A stretch of DNA of 64,000 nt from Acuticoccus sp. I52.16.1 (GTDB lineage Bacteria; Pseudomonadota; Alphaproteobacteria; Rhizobiales; Amorphaceae). Positions 24,549-34,017 of this stretch are shown one piece after another. A program made the position numbers and the translations under genes. Position 1 is the stretch's first letter, and each line of letters starts with the position of its first letter. The stretch covers positions 1,984,001 to 2,048,000 of the forward strand of contig NZ_CP094828.1 in the NCBI RefSeq assembly GCF_022865125.1. Reading direction: 5' to 3'. The notes under the pieces are model-generated. The model ran no database searches and was not told where the DNA came from. It was given only the letters and a program-made list of their open reading frames with translations.

Positions 24549-25127
24549 TCATTGCGAGGACGGAACCTCGGGCGTCTCGCCGTCGGGCGCGGTGGGCGCT
24601 TCGGCGACGGTGTCCCCGGTGTCCGGCTCGGCCGCGATCTCGAGGTCGGCGATGCGCCGCTGGAGGCTTTCCAGGCGCAGGTCGTAGTCGAGGAAACGGG
24701 CGTCGTAGTCGGCGAAGCGGGCGTTGTAGCTCGCTTGCAGCTCCTGCACGGAGATCGGCTCGTCGGTCTGCGAGGCGGGGGCGGGGATCGCTTCGTCCGG
24801 GTTCGGCTCGGCGGTCGCGGCCTCGACCGCGTCGGCGGTCGCCTCGGCCTCGGCCTCTTCGCTGGGCGTGACGGCCTCGGCGGCGACCGGTTCTTTCGGC
24901 TGCGCGGCGGGCGTGTCGGGCGCGGTGGGGGGCGCGGCTTCTTCGCCGGCCGCGGGCTCGGCCTGGACCTGCGCGAGGTCGGCGGACGGCTGCGGGATGT
25001 CGTCGCCGAGCCGAGAGGCAGCGAGCTCGGCGATGGTCGCGGGCTCGTCGTCCGGGACGGTCTGCGCACCGGCGGCGGCCACGGCGAGCCCGGCGGCACC
25101 CACGACGGCGGCGATCAAGCGGATCAT
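24549..25127 (-). CDS. Exported Glu/Ala-rich hypothetical protein
   Basis: A 192-residue acidic protein with a signal peptide (about residues 1-23, I-R-L-I-A-A-V-V-G-A-A-G-L) and a low-complexity Ala/Glu/Pro body. A C-terminal coiled-coil-like stretch contains Y-N-A-R-F-A-D-Y-D-A-R-F-L-D-Y-D-L-R-L, a heptad-like repeat. No family recognised. It lies 70 bp downstream of atpC without an obvious terminator between, so it may be read from the ATP synthase transcript. An earlier in-frame ATG exists at 25151. Confidence 0.6.
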   Translation of the reverse strand: MIRLIAAVVGAAGLAVAAAGAQTVPDDEPATIAELAASRLGDDIPQPSADLAQVQAEPAAGEEAAPPTAPDTPAAQPKEPVAAEAVTPSEEAEAEATADAVEAATAEPNPDEAIPAPASQTDEPISVQELQASYNARFADYDARFLDYDLRLESLQRRIADLEIAAEPDTGDTVAEAPTAPDGETPEVPSSQ

Positions 25128-25197
25128 TGCGTTCCTCACGATACGTCGCATTGCTAACGCGCTCGTGAAGGAACGGTTCCGCGGGTCGTCACGATCG

Positions 25198-25590
25198 TCA
25201 GAGCTGCGAGTGCACCATGTGCAGCACGGAGATGCGGCGCATCGCCTCGTCGTGGTCGGCGGGCTCCATCTCGGCCGCTTCCTTCTGCGCCGCCTCGATC
25301 ATCGCCGTCATCGAACCGGCCGACAGCTCGCTGATCGGGGTCGCAGACTCGGCCAGCACCGTGCAGGTGACGCCGTTCATGTCGCAGAAGCCGCCGTCGA
25401 TGAAGAGCTTTTCGCCGGCGGCGCCACCGCCGGTCACTTCCAAGATGCCGGGATCGAGGAGGGCCAGCAGGGGCGCGTGGCCGGCCATGACCTGGAACTC
25501 GCCCTCTGCACCGGGGAGCTTCACCGCCTCGACTTCGCCGGAGAAGAGGAGCCGCTCGGGGGAGACGATCTCGAAGGGGAAGGTGGCCAT
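25198..25590 (-). CDS. atpC: F1F0 ATP synthase epsilon subunit
   Basis: Central-stalk epsilon subunit, 130 residues, which couples and regulates rotation of gamma. The N-terminal beta-sandwich is clear: F-P-F-E-I-V-S-P-E-R-L-L-F-S-G-E-V, P-G-A-E-G-E-F-Q-V-M-A-G-H-A-P-L-L-A, then F-I-D-G-G-F. The C-terminal helical part is short, as in many alphaproteobacteria. Its ATG overlaps the stop of the preceding small CxxC protein by one base (TGATG). Confidence 0.96.
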   Translation of the reverse strand: MATFPFEIVSPERLLFSGEVEAVKLPGAEGEFQVMAGHAPLLALLDPGILEVTGGGAAGEKLFIDGGFCDMNGVTCTVLAESATPISELSAGSMTAMIEAAQKEAAEMEPADHDEAMRRISVLHMVHSQL

Positions 25591-25823
25591 CAGGACTCAG
25601 CCTTAGCGTTGATCTGTTCTGGGGTCTGAAGGCCCGTTCCGCAGAACGGGCAATACAGCACGGGCCGGTCGAAAAAACCGAGGCCGCCGGGGGTGGGGAG
25701 GGTCGCCACGACCATCGTCAGCACCCCGTCATCGTCGACGAACAGCGCCGGCTCGGCCCCCTCGCCGGGGCCCGCGAGGACCTCGGCGAGGGATGCGCAG
25801 CACGGTGTGTCCGCCGCGGCCAC
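25590..25823 (-). CDS. Small CxxC zinc-ribbon-like protein inserted between atpD and atpC
   Basis: A 77-residue protein of unknown function. It has P-C-C near the N-terminus and a C-terminal V-L-Y-C-P-F-C-G-T-G-L-Q-T knuckle typical of half zinc ribbons, so metal binding by the CxxC pair with the early Cys pair is possible. It begins with GTG immediately after the atpD TAA, and its TGA overlaps the atpC ATG. That placement and coupling suggest expression in step with ATP synthase subunits. No standard F1F0 subunit has this sequence. The GTG start is fixed by the adjacent atpD stop. Confidence 0.75.
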   Translation of the reverse strand: MAAADTPCCASLAEVLAGPGEGAEPALFVDDDGVLTMVVATLPTPGGLGFFDRPVLYCPFCGTGLQTPEQINAKAES

Positions 25824-27275
<1,452 letters not shown>

Positions 27276-27367
27276 TTAACCGGTGGTGCGCTATTGTCCA
27301 GTACAACGGCGACCTTAAGGGTGACGTCCTGAGAAGAAAACGGGGTGGGGGGCGACAATCGCGCCGA

Positions 27368-28123
27368 TCATGAGACTTCTGCCTGTCGCATCTCGCGAAT
27401 GAAAGGCCTCACGCGTTTTTTGTCCTGCGGCAGCGCCCAGGCGAAGATGCCCGGCAGCCGTCCTGCACGGCGATAACCGAGCGCCTCGAGGAATTCGTCG
27501 CACTGACGCTTCTTGTCTTCGACGAGGATGACCGGCTTGCAGCGCTCGATCGTCGCACGTGCGCCGGCGAGGGCGGCCATCTCGTGGCCCTCGACGTCGA
27601 GCTGAAGCACCGAGAGGTCGGCGATTGCGTAGGCGTCGATGGTGGTCAGCATCGTCGGCTGCCCGCGCTCGGAGATCGTCGACGCGCCGCCGCGGTGACC
27701 TTTTTCGCCGGTGTCGATGTAGGCGACGTCGATCCGCTCGCCCAGGCCGGCATTGGTGAGGAGCACGTTGGCGAGGCCGTTGGCCTCCACGCACTGCTTG
27801 GCGAGCACGTAATTTTCCAGCACCGGCTCGAACGCGTAGACGCGGCCGGGGCAGGCCTTGGAGAAGGACGGCAGCATATCGCCGAAGAACGTCCCGGCGT
27901 GCACCATGTCGCCGGGCCGGTCGGCGAAGAGCTTGGCGACGAGCGCGTGCGTCATCGGCTCGAAATGTCGCCCGTCGAGCACGCATTTCGAGGCCGGGCG
28001 GCCGGCGGCGTAGGCCGGGACGAAGTGCGTCTCGGCGCCGACCTTGGCCGGGCGGTAGGCGACCGAGTAGGCCGCAGTGTCGCCGGTGGTCTTGCGGCCC
28101 ACCTTCTCGGCTTGCGCGCTCAT
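27368..28123 (-). CDS. FkbM family methyltransferase, second of a pair
   Basis: A 251-residue SAM-dependent methyltransferase. FkbM features: D-M-V-H-A-G-T-F-F-G-D-M-L as the SAM loop, V-Y-A-F-E-P-V-L-E-N, L-T-T-I-D-A-Y and L-Q-L-D-V-E-G-H-E-M-A-A-L. FkbM enzymes O-methylate sugars, polyketides or lipids. The ATG overlaps the stop of the first FkbM gene (ATGA). It is divergent in sequence from its neighbour but has the same architecture, suggesting an old duplication. It lies 125 bp before atpD. Confidence 0.82.
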   Translation of the reverse strand: MSAQAEKVGRKTTGDTAAYSVAYRPAKVGAETHFVPAYAAGRPASKCVLDGRHFEPMTHALVAKLFADRPGDMVHAGTFFGDMLPSFSKACPGRVYAFEPVLENYVLAKQCVEANGLANVLLTNAGLGERIDVAYIDTGEKGHRGGASTISERGQPTMLTTIDAYAIADLSVLQLDVEGHEMAALAGARATIERCKPVILVEDKKRQCDEFLEALGYRRAGRLPGIFAWALPQDKKRVRPFIREMRQAEVS

Positions 28124-28863
28124 GACGGGCGCCGGGCGCCGGCCGGGCGCGCCCGCACCACGGGAGCATTGGTCGCCTCGAAGATGCGGTTCTTCTCCCA
28201 GGCGCCGACCTCCTGGTAGCCCGCCTTGGGGAACGACTGGGCCAGCCACTCGGCGGTGGTGCGCCGCCCCTCGATGACGAGCTTGGGATGGAAGCGGCGG
28301 ACCAGCCGGCCGGCACCGCGCAGCGCCTGGCGCTCGAATCCCTCGATGTCGAGGTGGATGACGGAGACCTTGCGGCCGCGCTCGACCAGCTCGTCGACCC
28401 GCACCACGTCGACCTCGATGTAGCCCTCGTCCTCCGCGCTCGCACGGGCGTTGAGCGCACTCTGCGCGGCGGCGGGCTCGTCCTTGTCGAAGTCGTGCAC
28501 GCGTAAGGGGAGCTTGTTGGGCTTGTTGCCGACCGCGACCTGGTGGAGGCGCACATTCGCCAGCTTGTTCAGCTCGATGGTGCGGCGACATGCCTCATGA
28601 CACAGCGGGTTCGGCTCGAACGTGTGGACCAGCTTGCCCGGCGCCAGCGCCTTGGAGATCGCCGGCAGGAAGTCGCCGATGAAGGCGCCGCCGGTGACCA
28701 CGTCGCCATCGGCGGCATGGTCGCAGATGTACTTGATGGTTTGCGGCTCGTAGACCTTGCCGCGGGCGAGCACCTTCGGCAGCACGCGCATGTGGTACGA
28801 CTTCGGCACGGCGTAGGCGCCGTACTCGTTTTTCATGATCTCGAAGTCGTCGTCCGTGTGCAT
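28120..28863 (-). CDS. FkbM family methyltransferase, first of a pair
   Basis: A 247-residue protein with the same layout as its neighbour: D-V-V-T-G-G-A-F-I-G-D-F-L, V-H-T-F-E-P-N-P-L-C, V-D-V-V-R-V-D-E-L and H-L-D-I-E-G-F-E-R-Q-A-L. The start M-H-T-D-D-D-F was chosen because upstream residues are low-complexity. It lies 139 bp after atpG, with a strong hairpin in between. Targets are unknown; a glycan or lipid O-methyl transfer is the family expectation. Confidence 0.82.
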   Translation of the reverse strand: MHTDDDFEIMKNEYGAYAVPKSYHMRVLPKVLARGKVYEPQTIKYICDHAADGDVVTGGAFIGDFLPAISKALAPGKLVHTFEPNPLCHEACRRTIELNKLANVRLHQVAVGNKPNKLPLRVHDFDKDEPAAAQSALNARASAEDEGYIEVDVVRVDELVERGRKVSVIHLDIEGFERQALRGAGRLVRRFHPKLVIEGRRTTAEWLAQSFPKAGYQEVGAWEKNRIFEATNAPVVRARPAGARRPS

Positions 28864-28973
28864 CCAACGCTCTCGTCGCGCGGTTCGCGGCGCGGTCGCG
28901 GGGTCTCGGGGGCCGGGTCGTGTCGAAATCGGCGGCGCGCAGGCGAACGCCGCACCGTTGGCCGGCGCGGCCA

Positions 28974-28995
28974 CGCCCCCGACGGATCGGGGGCG
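28974..28995 (-). terminator. Hairpin between atpG and the FkbM genes
   Basis: Perfect 9-bp stem (CGCCCCCGA / TCGGGGGCG) with a 4-base loop, starting 8 bp after the atpG stop on the minus strand. No T-run follows. It could attenuate transcription from atpHAG into the FkbM genes and atpD, or stabilise the 3' end. Confidence 0.5.
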
Positions 28996-29002
28996 GTGTG
29001 CC

Positions 29003-29896
29003 TCAGAGCGACTCGGCGCCGGAGATGATTTCGATCAGCTCCGTCGTGATCTGCGCCTGGCGGGTCCGGTTGAACTCGAGGGTCAGGCGGTCGATCATGT
29101 CGCCGGCGTTGCGCGTCGCATTGTCCATCGCGGTCATGCGGGCGCCCTGCTCGGAGGCGTCGTTCTCCAGGAGCGCGCGGAAGATCTGCACGCGGATGTT
29201 GCGCGGGACCAGCGCCTGGAGGATCTCGGCCGCGCTGGGCTCGTACTCGTAGACGCCGCCGCCCTCGGCTTGCAGCTCGGTGTCCTCGTCCTCGCCGATG
29301 ATCGGCGCGGCGGGGATCAGCTGCTGCCCGGTCGGCACCTGGCTGATGACGTTCTGGAACGCCGAATAGTAGACGGTCGCGACGTCGAACTCGCCGGCTT
29401 CGAAGCGGCTGACGACCTTGTCGGCCACCAGGTGCGCCTCGGCGAACGAGATCTTGCGGATCGACTTGAAGTCGACCAGCTCGACGATCCTGTCACGGTA
29501 GCCGCGCTTGAGGATGTCGAAACCCTTGCGGCCGACGCAGAGGAACTGGACGTCCTTGCCGGCCAGCATGAGGTTCTGCGCGTCGGCCAGCGCCTTCTTG
29601 ACGATGGACGAGTTGAAGCCGCCCGCGAGACCGCGGTCCGCCGTGCAGACCACCAGGAGGTGGCGCTGGTCGGACCCGGTGCCGGTCATCAAGATCGGTG
29701 CGTCCGGATCGCCTTCGGTGAGCTGCGCGAGGTTGGCCAGCACCGCCGCCATGCGCTCGGCATAGGGGCGCGCGGACTCCGCCGCCTCCTGCGCCTTGCG
29801 CAGTTTGGCGGCGGCGACGAGCTGCATCGCCTTGGTGATCTTCTGCGTCGCCTTGACGGAGGCGATGCGGACTTTGAGGTCCTTCAGAGACGCCAT
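29003..29896 (-). CDS. atpG: F1F0 ATP synthase gamma subunit
   Basis: Rotor shaft of F1, 297 residues. The N-terminal helix ([22 protein letters not shown]) and the C-terminal helix ([13 protein letters not shown] ... I-T[11 protein letters not shown]) form the coiled-coil shaft. [10 protein letters not shown] is the conserved DELSEED-contact region. Follows atpA by 27 bp. Confidence 0.97.
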
Positions 29897-29923
29897 TATG
29901 AATTCCCGGTGTCGGCGGCGGGC

Positions 29924-31480
<1,557 letters not shown>

Positions 31481-31481
31481 C

Positions 31482-32036
31482 TTATGCGGCTTCCTTCATG
31501 GCCTGGCGCATCCCCTGGAGGCGGGTGCGCACGGAAGTATCGATCATCTGACTGCCGAGGCGAACGATCAAGCCGCCGATGAGCGACGGGTCGACGATCG
31601 TCTCGAGTTTCATGGTGCCGCCGGTCTTCTCCGACAGCACCCGGCGCAGCGTCTCGAGCTGCTCGTCGTTCAAGGGTTCGGCGCTGGTGACGACCGCGAG
31701 CGTCTCGCCGCGGTGCTTGGCCATCAGGTCGCCGTACGCCTTCAACATGTCCGGCAAGGCGAAGAGGCGGCGGTTCCGGGCCGTCAACTTGGCGAAATTC
31801 GCCACGAGGCCGGACACGCCGTGCGACTGCATCACCGCGTCCAGGGCGCGGATCTGATCCTCCGCCTTGAAGACGGGGCTCTCCAGAAGTCGCCGCAGAT
31901 CATCGCTTTCGCTGATCATCTGGCGAAGTGTGGTCACATGGGACTCGACGTCATCGAGCGCGTTTTGATCGCGCGCGAGGTCGAACAACGCGGATGCATA
32001 GCGTTCAGCGACGCCTGATGATTCGGATGTAGCCAA
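31482..32036 (-). CDS. atpH: F1F0 ATP synthase delta subunit
   Basis: Peripheral-stalk delta subunit (OSCP), 184 residues: [12 protein letters not shown] near the start and the C-terminal [25 protein letters not shown] signature. The start is TTG, seen from AGAG upstream and the conserved M-A-T-S beginning. First gene of the cluster; its promoter must lie in the 277-bp gap up to 32313. Confidence 0.96.
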
Positions 32037-32229
32037 GGCGCTCTTTCTGGTGTTCGTCTTGCCCGTGGGGGGACAGCGGCGCGCTTAGCATACGCGTATT
32101 TGGGGCGCAACGTCGGCGGGCCGCGTAAAGCCATCGAACCGGCCGCCGGGGGCGAGGTTTTTGTTCCGCAAAGGTGACCGGCGCCCGCCCTCCCCGACCA
32201 GAACCGCCCCGAACGCCGCCCGCGACGGC

Positions 32230-32263
32230 AAAACGCCCGGCCGACACGAAGGTCGACCGGGCG
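32230..32263 (-). terminator. Rho-independent terminator of the chemoreceptor operon
   Basis: On the minus strand CGCCCGGTCGAC-cttcgt-GTCGGCCGGGCG-TTTT: a 12-bp stem with one mismatch followed by four T, 51 bp after the stop of the methyl-accepting protein. It insulates the chemoreceptor operon from the downstream atp promoter. Confidence 0.8.
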
Positions 32264-32313
32264 AAGGCCGTCGCGCGCAATGCCGCGGCTCGGATCGGCG
32301 GCGGTGCCGCCCG

Positions 32314-34017
32314 TCAGACCGCCGAGCGGGCGCTGACGTCGTCGTTGGCCACCGTGCCGATGAACGCGTCGATACTGCCCGACAGGTCGTTGCTCGACGC
32401 CTGTAGCGCCTTCGAGAGCTGGTTGACGCTCGTCGCCACCTGGCGCGTCTCGCCCACCTTGTTCTCGACGCCCTGAACGTTGTCCGCGACGCCCGTGGTC
32501 TGCGCCGACACCTCGTTGACGTTGCGCGAGATCTCGCCCAGCGCCGCCGACTGCTCCTCGACCGCCGCCGCGACCGCCGCGGAGTTGCCGTTCACCTCCG
32601 CGATCGAGCTGGAGATCAGGCCGATCGCCTGGACCACCTCGTCCACCTCGCTGGAGACGTGGCCGATGACGCGGCCGATGTCCTCGGTCGCCTTGGCCGT
32701 CTGGTCGGCGAGCTGCTTCACCTCGTGGGCGACGACCGCGAAGCCCTTGCCGGCATCGCCGGCCCGCGCCGCCTCGATCGTGGCGTTGAGGGCGAGAAGG
32801 TTGATCTGCCCGGCGATGCCGTTGATCAGGTCCACCACCTGGTGGATCTCGTCCGAGCGTTCCTTGAGGCCGTTGACCTTCGCCGTCGCCGTCTCGGTGG
32901 CGTCGGTGGTCGTCTGCGTCAGGTTGGAGACGTTCTGGAGCTGGCCGGAGATGTCGTGGATCGAGGCGGTCATCTCCTCGACCGCGGCGGCCACGCCCTT
33001 CACGCTGAGCCCGGTCGCCATCGCCGCGTCGTTCACGGTGCGGGTGTAGCTGTAGCTCGCGCCCACCACGTCGTCGAGCGAGGTGGCCGCGCCGTCGAGC
33101 TTGATGCCCGCCTCGGACAGCTGCGCCAGAAGCTGGCTCGACTGGCCGCGGAAGCCGCGCACCGCCTCGGTGATCTCCTCGGCGCGGCGCGCCTTCTCCT
33201 CGGCCTCGCGCTTGTGCTCGGCCTCGACCTCCTCGTTGTGCTCGCCCTGCTCGCGGAACACCTCCAGCGCGCGGGCCATCTCGCCGATCTCGTCGCCCCG
33301 CGTCGTGCCCTCGATCTCGACCGACCAGTCGTGGTCCTTGAGGCGCCCGGTGGTCTCCGCCAGGCGCTTCACCGGCAGTGCGACGCCGAGCCGCATGACG
33401 ATGGCCATCACCATCGAGACGACCAGGATGACGACCGCCGACCCGAGCGAGCCGTACATCAGGAACTTCAGGTCGCGCAGCTGGTACTCGCGCTGCATCG
33501 TCAGGGCGCGGCCGGACTCGCTGCTGATCTTGGCGAAGCCGCGGTCGATGTCGCTCCACAGGCGCTGATTGAGGACCGACAACTCGCGCAGGCGCGCCAT
33601 GTCGAAGGTCAGCGGATCGGTCATCTCGTCGAGCTGGGTCTCGGCGACCTCGCTGCGCCACTGTTCCAGCAGCCGCGCCAGCGTGCTGACGTCGCCGGAC
33701 AGGTCCGCGCCGGGGTCGACCACGCGCGACAGGTCCCGCTGCGCCGCGTCGGACCGGGCGAAGCCGCCTTCCACCCGCTCGGCGTTGGTGACGTCGCCGC
33801 TGTTGATGTACGCCAGCAGCGCCGCGTGCGTGTCGGACGCGGCGCGGTGCCAGGCGTCGACCAGCTCCAGCTGTTCGGACCGGCGGCCGCTCTCTTCGAG
33901 CCCGTTCACCACTTTCAGCGACTCGTACAGGATGAATCCGGCCGACAGCATCGTCACCGCGATGATGCCGGCGAACGCGACCCAGAGCTTTTTCGAAATC
34001 GAGAGATTGGCCATCAT
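32314..34017 (-). CDS. Methyl-accepting chemotaxis protein
   Basis: A 567-residue transmembrane chemoreceptor. TM1 is about residues 10-30 ([18 protein letters not shown]), a helical periplasmic domain of about 150 residues follows, and TM2 ([14 protein letters not shown]) leads into a HAMP domain. The signalling hairpin tip is [30 protein letters not shown], which binds CheA/CheW. No CheR-binding pentapeptide ends the protein. Its ATG overlaps the stop of the upstream periplasmic sensor gene (ATGA), so the two are co-translated. ATG at 34014 is also possible. Confidence 0.93.

Follow-up and report, generated by a model that had tools for sequence, protein, structure and literature searches.

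A pair of FkbM-family methyltransferase genes between atpG and atpD of the Acuticoccus F1 ATP synthase operon, and a candidate separate promoter for atpD

The window analyzed here, a stretch of 64,000 nucleotides from the 5.5-Mb genome of Acuticoccus sp. I52.16.1 (genome G000 in the comparisons below), carries the F1 genes of the ATP synthase on its minus strand in the order atpH-atpA-atpG-Fk1-Fk2-atpD-atpC, Fk1 and Fk2 being two FkbM-family genes that together form a 1.76-kb insert between atpG and atpD. The features of the locus are as follows, with positions counted in the window.

74 nt upstream of atpH, minus strand: promoter-like site TTGCGCC-N14-GCTAAGCG, conserved in the family
31482-32036, minus strand: atpH (delta), first gene of the F1 operon
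29924-31480, minus strand: atpA (alpha)
29003-29896, minus strand: atpG (gamma), last gene ahead of the insertion
28864-29002, minus strand: spacer between atpG and Fk1, unalignable even among the three species with the pair
28974-28995, minus strand: perfect 9-bp hairpin lacking a U-tract, of a kind found at chance frequency
28120-28863, minus strand: Fk1, FkbM-family methyltransferase, 247 aa
27368-28123, minus strand: Fk2, FkbM-family methyltransferase, 251 aa, sharing an ATGA overlap with Fk1
27243-27367, minus strand: leader of atpD, non-coding and conserved among the three species with the pair
27333-27343, minus strand: conserved leader block CCGTTTTCTTC
27291-27319, minus strand: conserved leader block CTTAAG-N15-GACAATAG, a candidate promoter
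25824-27242, minus strand: atpD (beta)
25198-25590, minus strand: atpC (epsilon)

Gene order and family profiles bear out the preliminary description of this locus in that two same-strand FkbM genes part atpG from atpD, and the ATGA overlap it reported is seen at 28120-28123. This overlap is not kept in the relatives, the two genes being separated by a one-base gap in G002 and by about 50 nt in G005. The same description drew attention to the perfect hairpin just behind atpG, which is real. Perfect 9-bp hairpins occur eight times in the window and 4-12 times in shuffled versions, however, and with its frequency not above chance and a U-tract absent we rejected it as a terminator or special element. 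Folding z-scores behind atpG are low in four genomes and near zero in others. Intrinsic terminator prediction on the coding strand from atpG to atpD returned none, so that read-through into atpD is also possible.

Profile searches place Fk1 and Fk2 in the FkbM methyltransferase family, both scoring above the curated cut-offs of PF05050 (22.7 bits; Fk1 67.6 bits, 1.9e-18; Fk2 48.4 bits, 1.6e-12) and TIGR01444 (37.7 bits; 92.6 and 58.7 bits, respectively). Fk1 is predicted (mean pLDDT 71) to adopt a class I (Rossmann-like) methyltransferase fold, and nearly all of the structure matches listed for the model are methyltransferases, with Z up to 14.9 and an rmsd of 2.7 over 167 residues; among the sequence relatives found, only 2py6, an FkbM protein, has a solved structure. 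The pair thus shares with the known family the fold (in the Fk1 model) and the FEP and LD(I/V)EG motifs, which both proteins keep, and differs from it in the SAM-binding loop, where the usual (D/E)-x-G-A-N-x-G reads TGGAFIGD in Fk1 and HAGTFFGD in Fk2, with two glycines kept. Fk1, Fk2 and a homologue from another family (genome G284) have G-(A/T)-F-(I/F)-G-D-x-L-P in its place, and in a FastTree phylogeny of FkbM proteins these three form a subclade with support 0.99, the support for its internal branching being 0.64. The suggestion that the pair arose by an old duplication proved only partly right: a recent tandem duplication is rejected, because Fk1 and Fk2, which share 29% identity in a direct comparison, are each closer to the G284 protein (38%) than to one another (27%) when the three are compared. 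Members of the FkbM family generally transfer methyl groups to hydroxyls of sugars or natural products. A distant FkbM relative in G058 lies amid genes that, judged by eye, resemble glycosyltransferase genes, and by analogy with this neighborhood and with the general use of the family the pair perhaps acts on an envelope glycan. Our literature search on the glycan function of FkbM proteins, and on insertions between atpG and atpD, found almost nothing.

We then compared eight genomes of the genus, that of the window included, and two of its sister genus. The FkbM pair is present in three of the eight genus members (G000, G002 and G005), always at the atpG-atpD joint. A tree of AtpA, AtpG and AtpD groups these three as a clade with full support, so that a single insertion followed by descent is the simplest account of this clade-specific insertion. 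Searching 297 genomes of the order with a profile gave only one further close homologue, that of G284, a lone gene away from the atp genes and with no evident glycan genes in its surroundings. Just distant FkbM matches came from 190 genomes of the class, and likewise from a search of plasmid records for the pair. Both genes are under purifying selection, less tight than that on their neighbors (dN/dS 0.28-0.41 for Fk1 and Fk2, 0.10-0.22 for atpG and atpD), and from these ratios we conclude that selection has kept them. The preliminary view of a foreign pair that breaks up the F1 genes is supported by the gaps of 148 and 85 nt between atpG and atpD in the sister-genus family mates (G008 and G009, respectively) and by the lack of the pair in five of the eight genus members.

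The atpG-atpD joint is enlarged or broken in all eight members of the genus. The gap measures 1760 nt in G000, 2141 nt in G002 and 1991 nt in G005, which hold the FkbM pair, about 2350 nt in G006, where the cargo is kdsD-kdsA, 568 nt in G003, with a 143-aa ORF that has no match to known families, and 308 nt in G004, with no clear gene. G001 has atpD-atpC-ahcY inverted relative to atpA-atpG (L046), on a 13.5-kb contig of a fragmented draft in which an assembly error is possible. In G007 kdsD-kdsA follows atpG, and atpD-atpC has moved far away from atpHAG on the same 4.9-Mb contig (L053, 8636-10682), with ahcY still downstream and a divergent neighbor upstream. The kdsD (KpsF/GutQ type) and kdsA genes lie directly behind atpG in both genomes (L051, 6822-8826, in G006; L052, 9174-11151, in G007), where they are the sole copies found, and relatives have kdsA and kdsD elsewhere. 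G006 and G007 are sisters in the AtpA/AtpG/AtpD tree (support 0.99). The genus members being related, these states are not eight independent events; the tree requires a first loosening of the joint plus distinct events for the FkbM pair, the kds genes, the small ORF and the rearrangements. G002 (C24), G005 (C4) and G006 (C245) encode on another contig a second AtpD-like protein, about 53% identical and perhaps that of an N-type ATPase; none was found in the window genome.

Among 49 relatives from beyond the genus that have atpG and atpD on a single contig, the gap is below 250 nt in 45 and above it in four (counted by hand), and in 80 named genomes the median gap is 60 nt and the maximum 566. 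Where the gap is larger it contains small genes, those of the OsmC family being the most frequent, as in several families of the Rhizobiales (L057, L083, L085, L120 and L139; gaps of 451-584 nt), the L120 protein matching OsmC PF02566 at 3.9e-20. G025 has a 1.16-kb gap (L059, 5618-6772) with a 95-aa ORF that matches CRISPR_Cas2 (PF09827, 1e-7) but may encode a Cas2/VapD-like protein and not a CRISPR component. The arrival of small cargo here is therefore recurrent in the order, but opening of the joint throughout a genus is exceptional among the genomes sampled.

The preliminary description proposed looking for a separate atpD promoter in 27243-27367, and the leader there is conserved: the 58 nt before atpD are 82-90% identical across G000, G002 and G005, which exceeds most of the FkbM coding sequence, and in these same three species the spacer behind atpG cannot be aligned. 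In four other genus members (G003, G004, G006 and G007) and in the family mate G009 a motif CTTGC-N16-GTT is found 56-69 nt before atpD. It occurs at this place in none of the 80 other genomes, and on average in 0.017 of 10 regions after shuffling, counts to be read with the facts that the patterns were picked after viewing the sequences and that genus members are not independent. A relaxed form of the motif covers the three FkbM species as well, at 77-79 nt before atpD, the motif being degenerate in the window's own clade. It resembles the family-conserved TTGCGCC...GCTA site before atpH and is loosely like the Caulobacter RpoD consensus, TTGaCgS/GCtANAWC (PMC8144410). A matrix built from the atpH sites missed the expected atpD site in G000, G002 and G005, with single-genome scores that were mostly not significant, and an E. 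coli-type sigma-70 scan of 25000-33000 gave no promoter. In G007, atpD must start its own transcript, since the gene upstream is divergent. We consider a separate atpD promoter in the window genome likely on this evidence, the conserved block, the lineage motif and the relocation in G007 speaking for it and the failure of the matrix at the window site against it. The earlier proposal that the pair may alter the ratios of the F1 subunits is weakened to the extent that such a promoter is supported.

Our preferred reading, to which we assign a probability of roughly 60%, is that a promoter of its own before atpD makes the F1 operon two modules, that the joint between these is tolerant, and that the FkbM genes are passenger cargo with a job of their own. 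The modules would be atpH-atpA-atpG and atpD-atpC, and atpD would have gained its promoter in the ancestor of the genus or earlier, the latter being possible because one of the two family mates bears the same motif. Following this gain, the joint would have tolerated extra DNA; the FkbM pair would have entered once, in operon orientation, in the ancestor of the three species, and other lineages of the genus would have received other cargo (kdsD-kdsA, the 143-aa ORF) or undergone a break there. The atpH promoter probably drives the pair by read-through, and selection would keep both genes for a job of their own, perhaps hydroxyl methylation on an envelope glycan or a small molecule. Across the genus the joint has been opened repeatedly and by different routes, probably owing to a promoter that belongs to the downstream half. 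We regard it as quite unlikely that the atpD promoter made the joint a highly expressed site open to reuse, into which genes of envelope biosynthesis (the FkbM pair and kdsD-kdsA) were repeatedly placed for ATP-synthase-linked expression.

A possible if doubtful alternative is that the operon is still one polycistronic unit that tolerates the 1.76-kb insert, with beta and epsilon made from the long message at a level set by translation initiation at atpD, and with the leader acting in translation or RNA stability and not as a promoter. This account would accommodate the location of all genes on a single strand, the lack of a predicted terminator between them there, the position of the most conserved leader segment right at the atpD start, and the weakness of the promoter motif in the window clade. 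It fits less well with G007, where atpD-atpC stands alone behind its divergent neighbor and this relative certainly transcribes the two genes separately, and with a motif whose distance from atpD is fixed in several lineages and which the 80 other genomes lack. We consider it highly improbable that the pair is instead kept in the operon by a tie to ATP synthase or the energy state, such as the modification of an F1 subunit or of a membrane component needed with it. The constant place and direction of the pair in three species, and the purifying selection on both genes, are what such a tie would predict, but most genus members do without the pair, sister lineages carry unrelated cargo at the same joint, and the sole clear outside homologue, that of G284, is a lone gene away from the atp genes; the earlier idea of co-expression for a purpose linked to ATP synthase is left without support. 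Repeated delivery to a target site of a mobile element or site-specific recombinase, which the repeated and differing insertions at one place might suggest, is scarcely credible, as the insert shows no sign of an integrase or transposase, no direct repeat of at least 14 nt brackets it, the only tRNA gene is 10 kb away, and the cargo of G006 and G007 consists of two core-pathway genes for which neither genome yielded a copy elsewhere.

The gene order of the F1 operon is a textbook example of an arrangement that subunit stoichiometry is thought to maintain. The genus and its sister genus offer a natural series of such operons, with the joint intact in the sister genus and padded, filled, inverted or relocated in the genus itself, that could test whether the alpha/beta ratio is set by operon integrity or by local promoters and translation. 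According to one published view, interrupting the F1 gene unit should be disadvantageous (PMC5709465). The preliminary statement that atpG and atpD are almost always adjacent holds for the Alphaproteobacteria, of which 89.1% have epsilon-beta-gamma-alpha-delta as one unit, and fails for the Cyanobacteria and Bacteroidetes, of which 89.7% and 87.8%, respectively, have the operon split between gamma and beta (PMC5709465). Those splits leave beta-epsilon as its own unit and have the same break point as the locus described here, where atpG and atpD are non-adjacent through the two-gene insert in the window genome and through relocation in G007; they are old and phylum-wide, whereas here the break is recent, confined to one alphaproteobacterial genus, and filled with cargo that differs between lineages. 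The OsmC loci of the Rhizobiales likewise have small same-strand cargo between atpG and atpD, but this is a single, different gene in tight spacing, and the atpD motif is absent in the four loci from named genomes. In Rhodopseudomonas blastica, the Walker group reportedly found in 1984 one extra gene of unknown function between gamma and beta of the atp operon, at the same joint of an alphaproteobacterial F1 operon, though one gene and not an FkbM pair. Splitting between gamma and beta is thus itself known, and the present locus is a variant of it, with repeated cargo at this joint within one alphaproteobacterial genus.
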